Source: Telmatospirillum sp. (GTDB taxonomy: Bacteria; Pseudomonadota; Alphaproteobacteria; CACIAM-22H2). From it: 64,000 bases of DNA. The position numbers and the translations under genes were made by a program. The stretch's first letter is position 1. Every line of letters starts with the position of its first letter. The stretch lies in assembly GCA_020248985.1 (NCBI GenBank), contig JADCGL010000016.1:1-64000 (forward strand), given 5' to 3'. The notes under the pieces are model-generated. The model was not told where the DNA came from. It did no database searches and saw nothing but the letters and a program-made list of their open reading frames with translations. Positions 1,749-50,369 of this stretch are shown in pieces.

Positions 1749-2630
1749 TTAGCGCGACTGCTCTTCGGCGATCCGGTCGAGAAGCCGATTCAGTCGTTCG
1801 TGCGCGTTTGGCGAGAGGGCGACATAGGAGCGGCGCCGGTCGCGGGAATCTTCGTGCCGCACGATCAGGTCCGCTTCCACCATGTCCTGAATGCGCCTCA
1901 GTGCGGTTGCCTGGCTTGTGTGCGCCGACATGGACAGGCCGCTCACCGACGTTGTTTTGCCGCTGCGCTCGATCAGCGCAAGCTCCAGCAGCATGAACCA
2001 CGCGGGATCGCCGAATATCTCCTGCGGCAGCAGTTCGGATCGCAGTTTCCGCGAATGCAGCATCGATTTCAGCGTTGCGGTCCTTTGCCGGTCGCGTTCT
2101 TCGGGGTCCGCTGCGCCGAATTTGTCTTTGGCGCGATGCGGAAAGGCAACCGCCGAGGTCGGCGCATCCAGGAGCGCGCGCAGCGTCGACACGGCAAGGT
2201 CGCGTGTGTTGGCCGAGCCGACGGCTTTTCTGTAGTTCGAGACGGCGGCAGCCGCGGCTGCAAGGGCCTCCTCCGGCTCGAACGGCTTTGGAAGGTACTT
2301 CTCGACCCTCAAATCGATCGCCGCGATGGCATTGGCGACTTCCGGAAATCCGGTCATCAGTATGAACCCGCAAGCCGCGCCGCGATCGCCGCATCGGCGG
2401 ATTCTCTGGAGAAGTCCGATCCCATCTTGCATCGGCATGCGGATGTCGGAAACGACGACGCCGATGCGCTCGTCCTTCAGAAAGCTTTCGAGGCCTTGCG
2501 CCGCACTATATGCGCCGACCGCTTTGAACCCAGCGGCGCATAGGGCAAAGACGAGTTCTTCGACGGCCGATTCCTCGTCGTCCACGACGAGTATTTTCAC
2601 GGCATCCTCGGTCTGCTGGTCTTGCAGCAT
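1749..2630 (-). CDS. response regulator, REC plus MarR-like winged helix
   Basis: About 293 residues from an ATG 23 bases after the stop of the membrane kinase, so the two form one operon and probably one two-component pair. The receiver domain (residues ~10-130) has the acidic pair in VVDDEE, phospho-acceptor Asp62 in SDIRMP, the Thr of LMTG and the Lys of PKPF. The C-terminal ~110 residues (FMLLELALIERSGK, SQATALRRIQDMVEADLIVR, RRRSYVALS) resemble a MarR-type winged-helix DNA-binding domain. This receiver/MarR-like pairing is less usual than OmpR or NarL outputs. The receiver resembles the two receivers at 5951 and 6997, suggesting local gene duplication. Target genes are unknown. The frame also stays open upstream of this ATG. 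Confidence 0.85.
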   Translation of the reverse strand: MLQDQQTEDAVKILVVDDEESAVEELVFALCAAGFKAVGAYSAAQGLESFLKDERIGVVVSDIRMPMQDGIGLLQRIRRCGDRGAACGFILMTGFPEVANAIAAIDLRVEKYLPKPFEPEEALAAAAAAVSNYRKAVGSANTRDLAVSTLRALLDAPTSAVAFPHRAKDKFGAADPEERDRQRTATLKSMLHSRKLRSELLPQEIFGDPAWFMLLELALIERSGKTTSVSGLSMSAHTSQATALRRIQDMVEADLIVRHEDSRDRRRSYVALSPNAHERLNRLLDRIAEEQSR

Positions 2631-2653: not shown

Positions 2654-4804
2654 CTACGCGGAAACCGGTGCGGCCGCTGCGCTCGTCCGTATCGGGAGCG
2701 ACACGACAAAGCGCGCGCCGCGACCGGCGTTCGAGACTTCGATCGTCCCCTTCAGGCTTTCGACGGTCGCGCGGCATATGGCCAGGCCGAGACCGGTGCC
2801 GCCGGCATTTGACCGTGTGGTGAAAAACGGCTGAAAGACGTTCTCAATGATGTCGGCAGGAATGCCGCCGCCGCTGTCTTCGACCACGACGCGGACGATT
2901 TCCGGCGCCCCGGAATCCCGTTCGATGCGGATCCCGACAATATCCGGCGGCCGCTGACTGGAACCGGGAACCGCCTTGCCGTGCGACCGAGATCTCAGAA
3001 TCGCGTCGTAGCCGTTCGCCAGCAAGTTCACGAAAACCTGTTCGAGTTCGATGCGACTGCATTCCAGTTCGCAGGCGACGTCCGTTTCGACGCGCAGTTT
3101 GATTCCGTCGATACGAAACTGCTCTTCGTACATGCCGGTCGCAGCATGTATCGCATCCGCAAGCTGGGCAATTTCGACGGCGTTCCTGTCCTGCCGAATC
3201 AGCGAACGAAAGCGCGTCAGGATGCTTCCCGTGCGCTGGATGTTGTCGATCGCCTTGCCGGCGCGGGTCAGGAGATCCTCTTTCGGCGCATCCCTCTCGA
3301 TGAGCGTCTTCAGGTTCGCAAGTCCGAGCCGGACCACGTTCAGCGGCTGGACCATTTCGTGGTTGAGCGTGGCAGCCAGCCGCCCGAGCGACGCCAGCTT
3401 TGCAGACTGGATGAACATCATCTCTTTCGCGCGCAGTTCTGTATTGTCGATCCCGACGCCGATGAAACGGATCGTCGGATCGATTCCCGTCTTGCTTTGC
3501 GTCCAGCTCCACATGATGTCGCGACGCACGCTCGTGGTGTCGCTCGGCATGAACGACGACTCGAAACGCACGGGATAGGCTGCGGCAGACCGAATCCTGT
3601 TGAACTGCCCGAACTGCGCGGCGGTCAGGTCGCCGGCGGCAACGACCGAGTCGAAGGGCCGCCCGACCAGAGCGCTGCGATCGGCAATACCGAACATGAT
3701 GGCGAACGTCGAATTGCAGGCGACAATCTGGCCCGAAGAATCCGTCTGCACGAGGGCTGCGCCGCACCCGTCCATGATCCCGATAAGGTCCGTTGATTGC
3801 TGGTTCTGCAGCGCGACCAATGCTTCGCCGACCCGGATCCTGTCTTGCGCCCGCAGATAGATCTCGAAAAGAACCGCAAGGCCGATAATGAAAGCAGCCG
3901 AAACGAACCCGATCGTCAGATAGAGACGACGCTGTTCGTAGAAGTCGGCAAATACTGCATCCGTGTTTTTGCCGACGAGAACCGTCAGCGACAGATCGTC
4001 CAAGCGTCGGAAAGCGAAAATCCGTTCGATTTTGTCCAAGCGACTGATTGCCCGAAACGTTCCTTCCGACGAAACTTTGACCCGATCCTCGACTTCAAAC
4101 CCCGCTATCGAACCGCCGATGAACTGCCGCCCGGGCACGCTCGGCGCGCGCGCGCGAATGATGCCGTCCTGCCCGAAAAGGTTCACCACCGCATTGTTCG
4201 GTTCTCCGAGAATTTCGAGAAAGTCGGAGAAGAGCTGGGGATCGACGGAAACGACGACGACGCCCAGAAATCGTCCCCCTGCATTGCGCACCGGCCGGCT
4301 GATGTTCAAGGACAAGCGCCCCGACGCGCGCCCGACAAGCGGTTTGCTGATGAACATGCGGTCGGCATCCGTCTCGCGATGCACGCGGAAATGTTCGCGA
4401 TCGGACAGATCGACCCCGATGCTCGAGGCGTTTTCGGTCGTCGCCAGCAGTTTGCCGTCGGCGCCGATCACGGCGATCTGGAACAGCGGTTCGCGCAGCA
4501 CGCCGCGCCGCGTGGACCATGTTGCGATGTCTGCCGGAGGACCGTCTTCGAGCACTTCCTCGCGCAGAAGCATCAGCACTTGGTCGAAACGCTGCAGGAG
4601 ACTCCGGGTGAAGACTTCGAACAGCTGCGTCTCGTACGTCACCTGCAGAGCGGCACGGCTTTCGAACTCCTTTTCGGCCCGGTCCGTAAGACCGATCGCG
4701 GCGATCACGGTTGCTGCAGCCAGCGAAACGGCGATTGCGAGCACTGTCAGGAGCCGCCCGGAGCCGTCGGCGAAAGATCCGAAGTTTCGGAGGCGCGCAA
4801 TCAT
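2654..4804 (-). CDS. membrane sensor histidine kinase (Cache-like sensor, PAS, HisKA, HATPase)
   Basis: 716 residues. A transmembrane helix at ~17-38 and another at ~294-317 enclose a ~250-residue periplasmic region with Cache-like features (LFQIAVIGADGKLLATT, DREHFRVHRE, GRLSLNISRPV). A PAS domain (~335-450) follows, then a dimerization helix with H482 in ATLNHEMVQPLNV, an N-box (VNLLANGYDAI), a G1 box (VEDSGGGIP), FQPFFTTR and a G2 box (GGTGLGLAI). The NHEMxQPL form of the H-box is typical of HisKA kinases of the DctB kind. The stop lies 23 bases before the response regulator downstream, its likely partner. The extracellular ligand is unknown; Cache domains usually bind organic acids or amino acids. 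Confidence 0.88.
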   Translation of the reverse strand: MIARLRNFGSFADGSGRLLTVLAIAVSLAAATVIAAIGLTDRAEKEFESRAALQVTYETQLFEVFTRSLLQRFDQVLMLLREEVLEDGPPADIATWSTRRGVLREPLFQIAVIGADGKLLATTENASSIGVDLSDREHFRVHRETDADRMFISKPLVGRASGRLSLNISRPVRNAGGRFLGVVVVSVDPQLFSDFLEILGEPNNAVVNLFGQDGIIRARAPSVPGRQFIGGSIAGFEVEDRVKVSSEGTFRAISRLDKIERIFAFRRLDDLSLTVLVGKNTDAVFADFYEQRRLYLTIGFVSAAFIIGLAVLFEIYLRAQDRIRVGEALVALQNQQSTDLIGIMDGCGAALVQTDSSGQIVACNSTFAIMFGIADRSALVGRPFDSVVAAGDLTAAQFGQFNRIRSAAAYPVRFESSFMPSDTTSVRRDIMWSWTQSKTGIDPTIRFIGVGIDNTELRAKEMMFIQSAKLASLGRLAATLNHEMVQPLNVVRLGLANLKTLIERDAPKEDLLTRAGKAIDNIQRTGSILTRFRSLIRQDRNAVEIAQLADAIHAATGMYEEQFRIDGIKLRVETDVACELECSRIELEQVFVNLLANGYDAILRSRSHGKAVPGSSQRPPDIVGIRIERDSGAPEIVRVVVEDSGGGIPADIIENVFQPFFTTRSNAGGTGLGLAICRATVESLKGTIEVSNAGRGARFVVSLPIRTSAAAAPVSA

Positions 4805-5030
4805 CTTATCCCGGCCATTTCAATCCTCTTGTCTTAGATCCATTACAAAATCGCAGACGCGTTCTATCGGTCAAGTGCGCCTGCTGTCGATCCCATTCAA
4901 GGTTCAGATTGGCAGCCAATCTGAACCAGACTTCCCTGTCCCGCGCTCCAAAGTGCGACTAGCTTGCTTAACGGGCGATTAACGGAATGCCGGCGCGACG
5001 GAACGCGAACAGCGAGATTGGCGTGATCAG
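4805..5030. promoter_or_regulatory. divergent intergenic region between two two-component loci
   Basis: 226 bases separate the minus-strand membrane kinase from the plus-strand soluble kinase. The stretch is visibly less GC-rich than the flanking genes (for example CAATCCTCTTGTCTTAGATCC near 4820). Promoters for both loci must lie here or inside the flanking genes. No -35/-10 pair is clear enough to assign. The longer minus-strand frame across 4968-5864 is a shadow of the plus-strand kinase. Confidence 0.4.
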
Positions 5031-5954
5031 ATGACGAGCCTGAAGCTGATATCGAGCACTGGCGGCGCAAGGGACCAAGCCGAACCGACGCTTCGGATGG
5101 GCATCCGGCGCCTGCGCCCTGCCCTTTCGTCGGCCCGCGCTGGAGGCCAGGCCAGAACCTATGCTTCGCCGTCCTATGTTGCCATGGCGGAGAACGCCGA
5201 CCTCAATGTCGCCAAGAATGCGGCGGAAGCGGCCAACCGCACGATAACGGCGCTTCTTGCCAAGATGGAACACGAGCTTCGCGCGCCGCTGAACGCCATT
5301 CTCGGCTTTTCCGAAATTCTCGCCGACAACACAGCCGGCGGGATCGGGCCGATTGAGGCCGCGCGTCAAAGCGAGTTCGCAGGCCATCTCAAGAACGCTA
5401 GCCACCAGCTTCTCGATATCGTCGAAAGCATCTTCGACCTTGCGAAACTCGACGACAAGGTATGCGACCTTCAGCTTTCGCCGACCTCTCTCGATGGTCT
5501 GATCGCGGGTGTAGTGGCGCGACTGCAGCCGATGGCGTCGCAGTTCGGGGTGGAGATTCGCACCGATCTCGAAGCCGGACTGCCGAACTGCGCGATCGAC
5601 GCCGCCCGCATCCGCCAGGCGCTTCGCAGCGTCATCGACAACGCAGTCAAGTTTTCGAACAGAAACGGCACCGTAAATGTCAGGCTGTCGAGCACTGCGT
5701 CCGGCAACGCGGCTGTCACCGTTTCGGATACCGGGACCGGGATCAGCCGGGAAGATATCGTTCATGTCTTCCGGGAATTTCACCATGGCGGTTCCTCGTT
5801 CACGCGTCGCTACGTCGGCGCCGGACTTGGCCTGACCTATGCCAAGAAGTTCGTCGAACAGCACAGAGGCCGAATTGCCCTGGCAAGCGAACGAAACGTC
5901 GGCACGACAGTGACGATCGAGCTGCCGTTGGTCTCCGCCGCGCCGAAAGGATGA
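5031..5954 (+). CDS. soluble sensor histidine kinase (HisKA-HATPase)
   Basis: 307 residues without transmembrane segments. The N-terminal ~70 residues match no recognised sensor domain and end in a coiled-coil-like helix (NVAKNAAEAANRTITALL). The H-box is KMEHELRAPLN with H81, followed by an N-box (SVIDNAVKFSN), a G1 box (SDTGTGI) and a G2 box (VGAGLGLTYAKK). Its stop overlaps the start of the next receiver gene by ATGA, so the two are translationally coupled and almost certainly a cognate pair. The C-terminal two-thirds are clearly similar to the shorter protein at 6382, its tandem copy. No strong ribosome site precedes ATG 5031; ATGs at 5097 or 5184 are alternatives. Confidence 0.85.
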   Translation: MTSLKLISSTGGARDQAEPTLRMGIRRLRPALSSARAGGQARTYASPSYVAMAENADLNVAKNAAEAANRTITALLAKMEHELRAPLNAILGFSEILADNTAGGIGPIEAARQSEFAGHLKNASHQLLDIVESIFDLAKLDDKVCDLQLSPTSLDGLIAGVVARLQPMASQFGVEIRTDLEAGLPNCAIDAARIRQALRSVIDNAVKFSNRNGTVNVRLSSTASGNAAVTVSDTGTGISREDIVHVFREFHHGGSSFTRRYVGAGLGLTYAKKFVEQHRGRIALASERNVGTTVTIELPLVSAAPKG

Positions 5955-6385
5955 TCAAAATGGCTTCGACGCTCTGCAAGGTGCTTGTTATCGACGACGA
6001 CGCCAGCTGCGCCGAAGAGCTGTGCCTGCTGCTCTCGGCGGCCGGTTTTCCAGCCGTGAGCGAAATCTGTGCGGCCGACGGGATACGCCATTTTCTACGG
6101 GACCCGAGCGTCAGGGTGGTCGTTTCGGACATTCGTATGCCCGATTGCGACGGCGTTCGGCTTCTCGACCAAATCCGCAGTTCGGGCGGGCGCGGCATGG
6201 ACGCGACCGTCATTTTGGTGACGGGGCAGCCCGACCTCCACACCACGATCGACGCCCTCAATCTCGGCGCGTCGGCAATGCTGATGAAGCCGCTCGATCC
6301 TGTCGAAATCGTCAGCGCGGTTTCCAAGGCCGTCGACATTCAGATGGAACTGATCGGCTTCGACCAATCCAGGAAGATCTCGTGA
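5951..6385 (+). CDS. single-domain response regulator
   Basis: 144 residues, a receiver domain with little else: VIDDDAS acidic patch, phospho-acceptor Asp60 in SDIRMPDCDG, ILVTGQP and the conserved Lys in MKPLDP. There is no DNA-binding or enzymatic output, so it acts by protein contact or as a phosphate shuttle or sink. It overlaps the upstream kinase by ATGA and the downstream ATPase-only protein by GTGA, giving a strictly coupled trio. AAAGG lies just upstream, so ATG 5960 could also be used. It is a close paralogue of the receiver at 6997. Confidence 0.87.
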   Translation: MIKMASTLCKVLVIDDDASCAEELCLLLSAAGFPAVSEICAADGIRHFLRDPSVRVVVSDIRMPDCDGVRLLDQIRSSGGRGMDATVILVTGQPDLHTTIDALNLGASAMLMKPLDPVEIVSAVSKAVDIQMELIGFDQSRKIS

Positions 6386-6990
6386 TTTCGCAATCATCCA
6401 TGCCCAGCCATGCGCCGCATGGCAATGTGGAGCCCCAAGCAATTCGCGTCGGGCGCGGGGATTCAAAGGTACCCGCCCTATCGGCCGGCGGTCGATTGCT
6501 GCCCGCGATCGAGTCTTTGTGCTTGAACGTTTTGATTCTGGATGTCGTCGAAGAACTGGTGCCGGTATCCGAGCATTTCGGCATCACGATTCAGACCGTG
6601 CTGGATTCAGATCTGCCGCGCTGCATGCTCGATGCCGTGCGCATGCGATACGCCTTGCGAAGCATCATCGACAACGCGATCAGGTTTTCGAAGACGGATG
6701 GCGTGGTCGACATTTGGACGACGCTGTCGGCTCAGCGCGGAATTGTGGTTACCGTGGCCGACAGAGGCGTCGGGATCTGTCCCGAGGATCTGGTCCACGT
6801 CTTCCAGCCGTCCCAAAGACGCGTCCAATCGGCGGCAGGGCGCCACAGCAGTGCGGGTATCGGGCTCGCTTTGGCCAAGACGTACGTCGAGTGCCATGAA
6901 GGAATGATCTGGCTAACTAGCAAACCTGATGTCGGCACGACCGTCGAAATCGTGCTTCCGCTTGGTGACGCACCAAAGAGATCGGAGTGA
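6382..6990 (+). CDS. histidine-kinase-like ATPase lacking the H-box domain
   Basis: About 202 residues from a GTG that overlaps the preceding stop (GTGA). The C-terminal ~150 residues are a HATPase_c domain with N-box (SIIDNAIRFSK), G1 box (ADRGVGI) and G2 box (SSAGIGLALAK). They align with the same part of the kinase at 5031 (for example LRSIIDNAIRFS against LRSVIDNAVKFS). No HisKA dimerization helix and no HELR-type phospho-acceptor histidine is present; the N-terminal ~50 residues match nothing known to me. It is therefore a truncated copy of the upstream kinase that keeps its ATP-binding motifs. It may be an ATPase that modulates the neighbouring pair, a serine-kinase-like enzyme or a decaying duplicate. 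Confidence 0.8.
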   Translation: MISQSSMPSHAPHGNVEPQAIRVGRGDSKVPALSAGGRLLPAIESLCLNVLILDVVEELVPVSEHFGITIQTVLDSDLPRCMLDAVRMRYALRSIIDNAIRFSKTDGVVDIWTTLSAQRGIVVTVADRGVGICPEDLVHVFQPSQRRVQSAAGRHSSAGIGLALAKTYVECHEGMIWLTSKPDVGTTVEIVLPLGDAPKRSE

Positions 6991-6996
6991 TGCGCC

Positions 6997-7530
6997 GTGT
7001 CTGCCGGAAACTGCAAAATCCTGGTCATCGACGACGATGCGAATTGCGCGGATGAACTCTGCCTCGTGCTCGCTGCAGCCGGCTTTCCGGCCGAAAGCGA
7101 GTCGAGTGCGGCGGGCGGAATGCGCCGCTTTCTGGGCGAGCCGGACTTCCGCGTCGTGGTGTCGGACATACGGATGCCGGACTGCAACGGCATCGACTTG
7201 ATGAAGCTGATCCGGGGAAGTTGCCCACGCGGGGCAACTGCAAGCCTTATTCTCGTGACGGGACATCCCGAAGAGCGTTCGATAAACGACGTTCTGAAAC
7301 TCGGCGTTTCGACGATACTTCTGAAGCCGCTCGATCCGATCAAAGTCGTCCATGCCGTTTCGAGAGCGGTCGATCTGCACACGCCGCCCGAGAGCCGATC
7401 CGAGGCAGTCCTGCGGCGGGACAGCCCGCAGGAATCCGAAACGCGCAAGGCGGACCCCTTGGACGAGATGCCCCTCGAGGACATCTTGGCCGCGTTGCGG
7501 CGAATAGTTCAGGAAGGCAAAGCAACCTGA
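6997..7530 (+). CDS. single-domain response regulator with C-terminal tail
   Basis: 177 residues from GTG 6997, preceded by ATCGGAG and only 6 bases after the ATPase-only gene. The receiver part (1-~125) has VIDDDAN, phospho-acceptor Asp57 in SDIRMPDCNG, ILVTGHP and LLKPLDP. It is nearly collinear with the receiver at 5951 (both share ELCL-L-AAGFPA-S and VVSDIRMPDC), so the kinase/receiver unit was duplicated in tandem. A ~50-residue charged tail ends in an amphipathic helix (DEMPLEDILAALRRIVQEG), absent from the other copy, which may be a docking segment. No DNA-binding domain is visible. Confidence 0.85.
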   Translation: MSAGNCKILVIDDDANCADELCLVLAAAGFPAESESSAAGGMRRFLGEPDFRVVVSDIRMPDCNGIDLMKLIRGSCPRGATASLILVTGHPEERSINDVLKLGVSTILLKPLDPIKVVHAVSRAVDLHTPPESRSEAVLRRDSPQESETRKADPLDEMPLEDILAALRRIVQEGKAT

Positions 7531-7569: not shown

Positions 7570-7642
7570 TGCGCCCGCGGCGATTGCAACCCGGAATTCC
7601 GATATTAAAAGGGTCGCGCTCTACCAATTGAGCCACGCGCTC
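7570..7642 (-). pseudogene. decayed tRNA-Lys copy
   Basis: Read on the minus strand, this 73-base stretch aligns with the intact tRNA-Lys at 8902-8974. It keeps the D-arm (GGCTCAATTGGTAGAGC), the loop CTTTTAA with UUU at the anticodon position, and CCGGG of the T-stem. Pairing is broken in the acceptor stem, the anticodon stem (CGACC against TATCG) and the T-stem, and the TTCGA of the T-loop has become TTGCA. About 20 bases of 5' flank (GTCGCCGAAACG-CGTCGAA on the plus strand) are shared too. A functional tRNA is unlikely. It marks a duplication or an old integration junction. Confidence 0.8.
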
Positions 7643-7814
7643 GTCGCCGAAACGTCGTCGAATCAAGTTTCGAAACCGGTGGCACCGGGGCCAGGGCCAC
7701 CCCCCCCTCGGCGTCGCTTCCTTGCCAATCTTTGCGGGAAGGATTAAGTTTTTAGCGATCTATAGTACGAAACTTCCGGACTTTGCATTTCCGCCACCTA
7801 TTTGGGAGTCGGCA

Positions 7815-8876
7815 ATGGCAGTCTTGAAACTGGCACCGATGCTCGCAAGTCTCGTTGTGCTTGTTTGGGCGGGGTGCGCGAACGCAACGGATTTGCGCGC
7901 CGACCGCCTGGGTACGCGGGTTTATCTTTCTTCCGGCGGTTTCTTCGAGATCGACAATATCGTCGACAATACGATCGGCACGGTCGGCGCCGGGTACGTT
8001 CCGGCGGTTTGGCTTGGCGGTTGTTTCAACATTACGAACAATCTGAACTACGACAGATCGCGCGCGTCGGCCTTGTTTCCGTTGAAGGCGGATTCGGTTT
8101 CGACCCTTGAAACTTGGCGCGAGGAACGACGTTGGCAGCTGACGTTTTCGGTCGGAACGCCGGAGCAGATATCCGTCACGGCCGGATCTTTTTCGGCGAT
8201 TCCTATCGTCGTAGACGAGCGCAGTGCTGTGGGAAATTTTCACGGACGGACCAGGTGCTGGTTTGCGCCCGAAGTCGGGTTGCCCATAAAGCTGGAGAAC
8301 CGCGTGATTGCCGGTACGGATGAAGGCCGCCTGCGCGAGTGGCAGGCCATCAAGGTTGAAATCAAGAATCGTGGCGGCAAGGCTGCCTTCGATCCGCCGG
8401 ATGTGGGCGTTCGCTATGTCACGAGTCTGGGGCCAAGCTTTCACATCAACAGAATCGACGGAACGAAAATCGTCGTCGGCACGACGCCGACGAACCAGCT
8501 TGTCGGCGGACTCTATTTGTTGTCCGTAAACAACCTCGAAGCCGATGCGCGCGACAGGGATTTTCGCGCAATCTGGCCGCTTGAGGTCGGCAAGAAGATT
8601 TCGTTTCTCTACAACAGCGGCATGGCGACAGGCCGCTACACGCTTGAAGTCGAGGGCATCGAAACGATCGCAACGCCGATGGGCCGGTTGAATACGTTTC
8701 GCATTTCGACGACGCTTTTGAACGCGAGTACGAGAAAAACCTTCGTAACGCGCACATGGTATTCGCCGGGCATTCGATTCATCGCCAAGCAGGAATTCGA
8801 GTATCCGCCGACCGACAAAGCGCCGGACAATTGGGTGATCCGCTCGGTCGCGCGCGCACCCGTCGGCGCCAACTGA
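7815..8876 (+). CDS. exported protein of unknown function with two internal repeats
   Basis: 353 residues from ATG 7815, preceded by GGGAG. The N-terminus is a signal peptide (hydrophobic core LASLVVLVWAG, then CANA); the Cys could suggest a lipoprotein, but the residue at -3 is Trp, so type I cleavage after ANA is as likely. The mature part looks like two copies of a ~150-residue beta-rich unit (about 33-190 and 200-340): ALFPLKADSVSTL matches IWPLEVGKKISFL and CWFAPEVGLPIKLEN matches TWYSPGIRFIAKQEF. I do not recognise the family; DUF3108-like periplasmic proteins have a similar strand pattern. The gene lies alone between a decayed and an intact tRNA-Lys, and its codon use looks less GC-rich than the core genes, so it may be acquired. 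Confidence 0.75.
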   Translation: MAVLKLAPMLASLVVLVWAGCANATDLRADRLGTRVYLSSGGFFEIDNIVDNTIGTVGAGYVPAVWLGGCFNITNNLNYDRSRASALFPLKADSVSTLETWREERRWQLTFSVGTPEQISVTAGSFSAIPIVVDERSAVGNFHGRTRCWFAPEVGLPIKLENRVIAGTDEGRLREWQAIKVEIKNRGGKAAFDPPDVGVRYVTSLGPSFHINRIDGTKIVVGTTPTNQLVGGLYLLSVNNLEADARDRDFRAIWPLEVGKKISFLYNSGMATGRYTLEVEGIETIATPMGRLNTFRISTTLLNASTRKTFVTRTWYSPGIRFIAKQEFEYPPTDKAPDNWVIRSVARAPVGAN

Positions 8877-8898: not shown

Positions 8899-8974
8899 TG
8901 GTGAGCCCGCCGGGACTCGAACCCGGAACCCCAACATTAAAAGTGTCGTGCTCTACCAATTGAGCTACGGGCTC
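8899..8974 (-). tRNA. tRNA-Lys (anticodon UUU)
   Basis: The minus strand folds as a full cloverleaf: acceptor GAGCCCG/CGGGCTC, D-arm GCTC-AATTGGTA-GAGC, anticodon stem CGACA/TGTTG with loop CTTTTAA (anticodon UUU at 8939-8941), and T-arm CCGGG-TTCGAGT-CCCGG. The 3' CCA is encoded (8899-8901). The gene follows coaD on the same strand. A degenerate second copy lies 1.3 kb away at 7570-7642. Confidence 0.96.
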
Positions 8975-48182: not shown

Positions 48183-48854
48183 ATGACCGTCACACTTGTG
48201 AGCCACAATCTTTGCCCCTATGTGCAGCGCGTCGCGATCGCGCTTACCGAAAAGAATGCCTCGTTCGAACGCACTACAATCGATCTGGCAGCCAAACCCG
48301 ATTGGTTTGTGGCGATCTCGCCGCTGGGCAAAGTGCCGTTGATGCGCATCCCCGAAGGCAAAGGCGAAGCCGTGCTCTTCGAAAGCGCCGCGATCGCCGA
48401 GTATGCGGACGAAGCCTATCCCGGCCCCGACCTGTTGCCGCGCGCGCCGCTTGCGCGTGCGCGCCATCGCGCTTGGATCGAATTCGCCTCAAGCCTGCTT
48501 GGCGATATCTGGCGCCTCGAAACGGCCAAAACAGAGGATGTGTTCTCGGCCGCCTGCGGCAGCCTCACGCTGAAACTCGCGCGCGTCGAAGAAGCGCTTG
48601 GGCAGGGGCCCTATTTCGCGGGCGAAGCCTTCGGCCTGGTCGATGCGGCGTTCGCACCCGCCTTTCGCTATTTCGACGTGTTCGATGGAATCGGGCCAAC
48701 CGTTTCGTTCGCCGATTTCCCGAAGACCGCCGCATGGCGCACCGCTCTTGCGGCCCGCCCAAGCGTGCGCGGCGCCGTCTCACCGGCATATCCCGAATTG
48801 CTGCACGATTTCCTGAAGCGCTGCGAAGCGGTGCTCTTGGCGCGCGCCGCCTAG
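48183..48854 (+). CDS. glutathione S-transferase family protein
   Basis: 223 residues from ATG 48183, preceded by GGAG. The active-site motif is [16 protein letters not shown], with a Cys (residue 11) as in omega- or beta-like GSTs that act as thiol transferases. The segment [32 protein letters not shown] is the glutathione-binding block. It is probably controlled by the divergent LysR regulator. Its last 4 bases overlap the chemoreceptor gene end. Confidence 0.88.
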
Positions 48855-50248
48855 ATCTTGTAGGCGACGCGCACGCCGCCCCAGTGGCGGCCGCGTATAG
48901 AGATTGGCGCCGAGACGTCTTTCATCAGCGCGAATTGGCCGTTGCCCATGTCGCGCCGATAGGTCTGCACGAGGAAGGGCTGCGTGCTGCGCCCGGCCGC
49001 CAAACCCACGCGGTCGTTGAAGATGCGTCGGTTGCGCGCATTGGCGGTATTCCAGGCGACGTCGTTGCCCTGCGGCTGCGAGAATTTTCGGTTGTGCGTC
49101 GGCAGATAGCCGTTGCGGTCGACGGCCGCACAGAACACGATGCGCGGATCGACATTCAGCATCGGCTCCTGGATCGCCGGGAACAAACGGTCGGTTGCGT
49201 CGAGGAAGCGCGTGCGCACCTGCTGCGGATTCGTGCCCGTGATTGGCACGTACTGCTCGTCGAACAAATCCGCCGTCGACAGCCGCCCGCTTTCCAACTC
49301 GGCTTCGAGTGCGGCCGCGATCTTGGCCGCAGCACCTTTGGCCGCGTCTATGAAGGGGGTATCGACAGTCTCGATACCCGAGGCCGCCGTGGCGGCGATC
49401 AGTCGCTCGCCCATGCCGACCAGGCGATCGACGCGTGCTTGCGTATTGTCGAGCGCTTTGCGCGATGCGTCGTTCGTGGCCGTGAGATCGCCCATCGCCT
49501 CGCTCACGCTTCGCGAGCGCGTGTCGATATGCCCGACCGCCGTCGTGATCTGACCAAGCCGATCGGACACGTCGCGCACATGCACGCTGATCGTGTCCAT
49601 CACTTCGGCGATCGCCGCCCCGCCCTGTTCGGCCGACTTGGCGCGTTGCAGCGAGTTTTCCGACTGGCCGATCAGGCGCGAGGCCTGCTGGCCCAGCGTC
49701 TTGAGCGTCGCGTCGATTTCGCCGGTGGCTTCGGCCGTTTGGCGTGCAAGCGCCTTCACCTCGCTTGCGACGACCGCGAAGCCCTTGCCCGCATCGCCCG
49801 CCCGCGCCGCCTCGATCGTGGCGTTGAGTGCCAGGAGATTGGTCTGCCGCGCGATCGCATCGATGCCCTTGGCCACGCGACCGATGCCGTCGAGGGCCGC
49901 GCGCAGACCGGTAAGGTCGTTTGCAATGCCGCGCGTGATCTCGACCAAGGCGGCAATCTCGCGAATGGCGCTATCGACCTGCGTCTTGGACGCCGTCATT
50001 TCGCCCGAGACGCGCTGCGCCAAAGTTCCCGCTTCGCCGGCGGCCGTCGCAACCTGGTGGTTGGCCGTGCTGAGTTCGGCCGTTGCCGCACGCACCGAGT
50101 CGAAACGCTCGATCTGCACTTTCAGATTGGCGGTGAGTTCGCCCACGAACCCGGCGACATCGGCGATTTCGACGCCAAGCGTCCCCGCTTCGGTCGCAAC
50201 GGTTTGCATCAGCGCTTTGGCTTGATCGCTCGCGGTCGACAAGGGCAT
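48851..50248 (-). CDS. soluble methyl-accepting chemotaxis protein with C-terminal sensor
   Basis: 465 residues from ATG 50248, which has GGAG 8 bases upstream (GTG 50257 is too close to it). There is no membrane helix. The signalling hairpin comes first, with the conserved tip [41 protein letters not shown] ~140-residue domain at the C-terminus ([67 protein letters not shown]) resembles the Cache/PAS-like sensor found in reversed-order receptors. It is probably a cytoplasmic chemoreceptor; the ligand is unknown. Confidence 0.9.
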
Positions 50249-50369
50249 TGGCGCCACTCCTGTTTTTTTGGTTCGTTCTTAACGCAAACTACTATTTTTC
50301 CATCGGTCGCACGCGCAAGGTTAAGAAAGGTTTAACGGGCAGCCATGTCGCTAACATTTGCGCTCCCCG

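Follow-up and report, generated by a model that had tools for sequence, protein, structure and literature searches.

A kinase-derived protein reduced to its ATP-binding domain, and probably retained for use, in a duplicated two-component operon of Telmatospirillum sp.

The stretch of DNA analysed here (the window: positions 1 to 64,000 of contig JADCGL010000016.1, assembly GCA_020248985.1, Telmatospirillum sp.) carries a four-gene two-component operon at 5031-7530, whose third gene, HK2, encodes a kinase-derived protein that has lost both the phospho-acceptor His and the DHp domain and retains the ATP-binding (CA) domain. With no DHp bearing a phospho-acceptor His, HK2 is not a HisKA-type kinase; it is kinase-derived, its His is lost and its gene is retained under selection (CA-domain dN/dS of 0.27), as expected of a histidine pseudokinase. 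Sequence comparisons make a functional accessory protein more probable than a dead gene. The reading that we favour, with somewhat more confidence than doubt, is that of a functional accessory CA protein, a pseudokinase reduced to its CA domain, which would modulate the HK1-REC1/REC2 relay.

The preliminary description of this DNA had proposed the order kinase, receiver, ATPase-only protein and receiver, and all four open reading frames were indeed found there, on the plus strand. HK1 (5031-5954, 307 aa) is a soluble histidine kinase with HisKA and HATPase_c domains in Pfam (1.7e-11 and 1.1e-24, respectively) and an intact His (MEHELRAPLN), followed by REC1 (5960-6385, 141 aa), a single-domain receiver. 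HK2 (6382-6990, 202 aa) begins with a GTG codon that overlaps the REC1 stop by 4 nt (GTGA). As also proposed, it has neither the dimerization helix nor the phospho-acceptor His, since Pfam detects HATPase_c only (3.8e-21) and HisKA is absent, and it aligns with the ATP-binding half of HK1 (47% identity over 154 aa, starting at HK1 residue 153). REC2 (6997-7530, 177 aa) closes the operon. The two receivers are close paralogues (61% identity over 123 aa) and both retain the acidic pair, the phospho-Asp, the Thr and the Lys, but REC2 is not the plain receiver that it had been taken for: its receiver domain is extended by a linker and a conserved C-terminal helix.

Genome-wide, the best paralogue of HK2 is HK1 (5e-37, with a runner-up at 3e-18 among 39 matches in the genome), and that of REC1 is REC2 (1.7e-45), ahead of a divergently encoded REC-MarR response regulator (2.4e-28). 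These closest-paralogue relations agree with the duplicated two-component unit suggested earlier, and the origin of the operon in a tandem duplication of a kinase-receiver pair, not in chance, is well supported by sequence. Of the four genes, REC1 is the best conserved (87% identity to relatives, dN/dS 0.10-0.13).

HK2 is present in 4 of the 11 genomes of the genus that were searched, the window's own (G000) counted, with five copies in total: the other genomes are G002, G004 and G003, the last with two loci (contigs 2 and 6, hereafter G003:C2 and G003:C6). When the four-gene order was looked for in related genomes, it proved to be conserved at G004, G003:C2 and G002 contig 64, divergent each time from the same dCache-PAS histidine kinase (2654-4804, minus strand, in the window), which is conserved at all five related loci. 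The overlap between REC1 and HK2 is likewise kept in four species. The REC-MarR gene (1749-2609, minus strand, translated from within the open reading frame 1749-2777, its start being approximate) also occurs at G003:C2 and G002, and the G004 contig (CAMDLT010000054.1, from a MAG deposited as 'Asaia bogorensis') stops short of its position. The window locus and G003:C2 are both followed by tRNA-Lys and gyrA and are thus positional orthologues. At the second G003 locus (G003:C6:214000-223000), the dCache kinase and REC-MarR are accompanied by HK2 and REC2 alone; HK1 and REC1 being missing, its His-less HK2 has no local sister. In G004, the N-terminal part of HK1 apparently lies in another frame than the DHp-CA part (L036:2220-2400), through a frameshift or a MAG error, and HK1 may be shortened there.

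Outside the genus, a search with REC1 as query found the module absent from 12 genomes of other genera of the order and, at E 1e-25 among 385 genomes of the class, present in the window's own genome only. It was not found in a plasmid search, and the only close match in a genome-contig database was the G004 record. For the six proteins examined, NCBIfam listed no family above its curated cut-off. An open frame of 191 aa (G012:C106) was considered as a further HATPase-only member and rejected, as it runs off the contig edge.

The relatives display intermediate forms of HK2. The copies of G003:C2 and G002 (269 aa each) and of G003:C6 (304 aa) retain a DHp region homologous to that of HK1, which scores weakly against HisKA (E of 7e-4, 0.034 and 6e-4, respectively, versus 1.7e-11 for HK1), and their phospho-acceptor His is replaced by Glu in G003:C2, Asp in G002 and Gln in G003:C6. 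The His is therefore present in 0 of 5 copies of HK2, and none of the five contains a stop or a frameshift. The two DHp-less copies, those of the window and G004, are both 202 residues long, 67 codons below the form of G003:C2 and G002; they form one clade (support 93/93), have a recognisably homologous N-terminus and resume at the same point after the loss, with the exact length and both junctions kept. The simplest history is a duplication, loss of the His in HK2 and then a single in-frame excision of the DHp in the ancestor of G000 and G004, although the three different replacements would also be compatible with independent losses of the His.

The preliminary description had named a full-length kinase in close relatives as a sign of sequencing error or local deletion. 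Such kinases do exist in G002 and G003, and the longer HK2 of these two congeners is what could be said for an assembly error or a recent deletion private to the window genome. Yet those copies are already His-less, and the short form, with the same junction, recurs in the independently assembled G004 at 71% identity to the window protein. We therefore do not infer an error or a private deletion, and regard this explanation, which the G004 orthologue rules out, as having a negligible probability.

We then considered the CA domain itself. The residues invariant between HK2 and ordinary kinases include N98, D127, G129, G131, G159, G161 and G185. Of the three boxes reported as kept, the N-box (Asn) and the G1 box (Asp/Gly) are indeed intact, whereas the G2 box retains its central Gly but reads SAGIGL in the window protein, with Ser at the first Gly, a position that is still Gly in G004. 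The G2 box is altered as well in the HK2 of G003:C2 and G002 (SGHGL, GPGNGL). Moreover, the Phe of the F-box is replaced by Ser in both DHp-less proteins (VFQPS); this position is Phe in the HK2 of G003:C2 and G003:C6 and Leu in that of G002. Because both short copies have lost the F-box Phe, and the window copy the first G2 Gly as well, HK2 may be impaired in its handling of ATP, and a donation of phosphoryl groups in trans by HK2 becomes less certain. AlphaFold2 predicts disorder for residues 1-39 and, with confidence, a CA fold for residues 40-196 apart from the ATP lid. Foldseek matches of this model include HK853, ZraS, the DHp-CA of DivL, CckA-CA and ThkA-CA, the best being HK853-RR468 structures. 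ATP binding by HK2 is plausible.

To estimate selection, Nei-Gojobori (NG86) counts with bootstrap were made for one pair, window versus G004, over few codons. The HATPase domain of HK2 has a dN/dS of 0.27 (0.14-0.51), close to that of HK1 (0.25; 0.14-0.42), while the linker reaches 0.39 (0.13-1.07) and residues 1-36 reach 1.16 (0.55-3.51). On these two-sequence estimates, the bare CA domain of HK2 appears to be held about as firmly as that of its intact sister, and the new N-terminus appears to drift. The contrast between 0.27 and about 1.2 speaks for the earlier suggestion of use rather than decay.

How might such a protein act? HK2 would be made together with HK1, REC1 and REC2, would bind nucleotide and, as it has no His to carry a phosphate, would set, in the role of an accessory subunit, the output that HK1 directs at the two receivers. 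Its likeliest mode would be to dock on the DHp of HK1 or on a receiver, in competition with HK1's own CA domain, and this docking may depend on nucleotide. Within the operon only HK1 has a phospho-acceptor His, so only HK1 could supply the receivers; outside the operon, the His is also kept in the divergent dCache kinase (NHEMVQPLN). A dimerisation of HK2 with HK1 through the DHp, as previously envisaged, is impossible for the window protein, whose DHp is gone, and is still possible for the DHp-bearing versions of the relatives.

Other readings of HK2 were weighed. HK2 could be a split-kinase donor, its CA domain binding ATP and phosphorylating HK1 in trans at the His, in the way that CheA4 acts on CheA3 in Rhodobacter sphaeroides. 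The catalytic N-box Asn and the G1 residues are retained, HK1 is the closest relative and its DHp could thus accept the CA domain of HK2, and split kinases exist, the separated CA and DHp of EnvZ remaining active (PMC3591291). HK1, however, has its own CA domain and, unlike CheA3, needs no donor, and the F-box and G2 changes described above, in the window and in relatives, also count against donation, which we therefore consider unlikely. Alternatively, HK2 may be a duplicate in slow decay that, having lost its His and then its DHp, persists by lag or through translational coupling to REC2. The stepwise loss of parts, the F-box and G2 changes and the drifting N-terminus fit this course, and HK2 may have a role in keeping REC2 translated. 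Against it stand the constraint on the CA domain, whose upper bound is 0.51 at 71% identity, the lack of stops or frameshifts in all five copies and the exact length and junctions shared by two species, so that we give slow decay a rather low probability.

It could also be asked whether HK2 binds REC1 or REC2 instead of HK1, its nucleotide state serving to hold, localise or dephosphorylate a receiver. HK2 lies between both receivers with conserved spacing and overlap, the CA domain is near the receiver in known kinase-receiver complexes such as HK853-RR468, the best structural matches, and the tail of REC2 resembles a PopZ hub helix. Receivers, though, dock mainly on the DHp, which is precisely what HK2 is missing, and a purely receiver-side partner appears improbable. 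The accessory subunit acting on the HK1-REC1/REC2 relay remains our preferred reading.

Several known systems resemble HK2 in part. DivL is an alphaproteobacterial pseudo-histidine kinase whose His is replaced by Tyr (Ala in Magnetospirillum) and which works on another kinase pathway via a receiver (PMC4211667). Like HK2, it is kinase-derived and without phospho-acceptor His, and its DHp-CA is among the structural matches of HK2. Unlike HK2, it keeps the DHp and can dispense with the CA domain, whereas HK2 is CA only, is devoid of PAS domains and arose by local tandem duplication. In the DivL type, the DHp-CA is retained, the His is substituted and a receiver is bound; the window HK2, having no DHp, falls outside this type, and the HK2 of the relatives fit it in outline. 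CheA3/CheA4 and EnvZ split in vitro share with HK2 an ATP-binding protein without phospho-acceptor beside a partner with the acceptor (PMC3591291). There, however, the partner has an acceptor His and no CA domain, while HK1 is complete with HisKA and HATPase_c; moreover, CheA4 is without P1 only, and HK2 is without any domain for dimerisation or docking.

The MA_type 2 kinases RdmS and MsmS of Methanosarcina acetivorans have an ATP-binding domain and no H-box, as HK2 does, and RdmS, although it shows no autokinase activity, binds ATP and hydrolyses it (PMC11784639); these are archaeal orphan sensors with input domains, whereas HK2 is a CA domain without a sensor, encoded within a two-component operon. 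In Corynebacterium glutamicum, a laboratory-evolved ChrS pseudokinase alters output via its paralogue (PMC9491836), a case that likewise involves paralogous two-component pairs; ChrS lost its CA domain and forms heterodimers through the retained part, and HK2 lost the opposite domain. Caulobacter HmrABCX was rejected as a parallel, since it concerns a hybrid kinase and Hpt proteins. A literature search returned no paper under the phrase 'histidine pseudokinase'. Histidine pseudokinases, H-box-less ATP-hydrolysing kinases and split kinases are thus already known, and a bare CA domain beside a complete sister kinase, reached through a visible loss of the His and then the DHp, matches none of them exactly.

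Although acceptor-less kinases are known, the path of loss is seldom visible. Here, living congeners display its steps: HK1 as the intact sister, full-length kinases in which one of three residues has taken the place of the His, and a CA domain on its own that is still under selection. They raise the testable question of what use a cell has for an ATP-binding kinase domain when dimerisation via a DHp and phosphorylation are both closed to it. A survey of Azospirillum required, in most such cases, HisKA with its His plus HATPase (PMC4618731). Domain-based surveys that discard 'incomplete' kinases may overlook proteins like HK2.

The C-terminal part of REC2 deserves a closer look. Its linker drifts (dN/dS of 1.2 and 0.9 in two pairs, with wide bounds), and its C-terminal helix, predicted at residues 160-173 with moderate confidence, is conserved in all five copies. 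The tail, PLEDILAALRRIVQEG (7465-7518), is similar to the N-terminal helix of the PopZ encoded in this genome, PSMEEILASIRRIISEDG. When 30 residues of PopZ were searched against the genome in six frames, the only matches were PopZ itself and this tail. The tail matched at E = 0.98 (50% over 18 residues), which is not significant alone; its conservation among orthologues makes the likeness a lead, and the tail is possibly a PopZ mimic. The N-terminus of Caulobacter PopZ binds the receiver CpdR, and this binding depends on phosphorylation (PMC11519897). The REC2 of G004 (L036:4193-4726) differs from the other four copies in having Ala at the position of the conserved receiver Thr (LVAGH).

The intergenic region of 226 nt between HK1 and the dCache kinase contains a perfect palindrome with 13-bp arms, GGTTCAGATTGGC-a-GCCAATCTGAACC (4901-4927, no strand), the longest found in a scan of the window. 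The palindrome is conserved at the orthologous loci (80% identical columns across four loci, compared with 33-41% for the outer parts of the intergenic region), and a genome-wide search allowing up to 3 mismatches found it as the sole site. From its position, the palindrome is likely the operator of REC-MarR, whose receiver is 43% identical to REC1. A second block conserved at four loci holds a CtrA-type full site, TTAA-N7-TTAAC (4968-4983, plus strand; motif as defined in PMC3692519). The genome encodes a CtrA, 70% identical to the Caulobacter sequence, so that at the sequence level the operon has what is expected of a CtrA regulon member. The motif is not enriched genome-wide (5 matches versus 12 for a backward control). 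Its perfect form occurs at four distinct places in the genome (4968-4983, 50320-50336, G000:C2:36411 and G000:C24:148752), all just upstream of signalling genes, namely the HK1 operon, two MCPs, one of which lies in the window (48851-50257), and a dCache histidine kinase. This suggests a possible tie of the operon to CtrA-controlled chemotaxis or motility. The operon would probably belong to a CtrA- and chemotaxis-linked group of signalling genes, and the divergent pair of dCache kinase and REC-MarR would exert control locally.

A bolder extension, which we put forward as speculative and doubtful as a whole, would see in HK2 a selected, natural free-standing CA domain (His lost, then DHp excised), an inverse DivL whose nucleotide state would control the sister kinase or a receiver in trans, and linked to polar or chemotaxis signalling by CtrA control and by the PopZ-like tail of the receiver.

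Downstream of the operon, tRNA-Lys(ttt) is present as a degenerate second copy and an intact one, 1.3 kb apart (about 7580-7642 and 8899-8974), with a DUF3108 gene (7722-8876) between them. Given that tRNA-Lys directly follows REC2 in G003:C2, the stretch between the two copies in the window is an insertion or a duplication.
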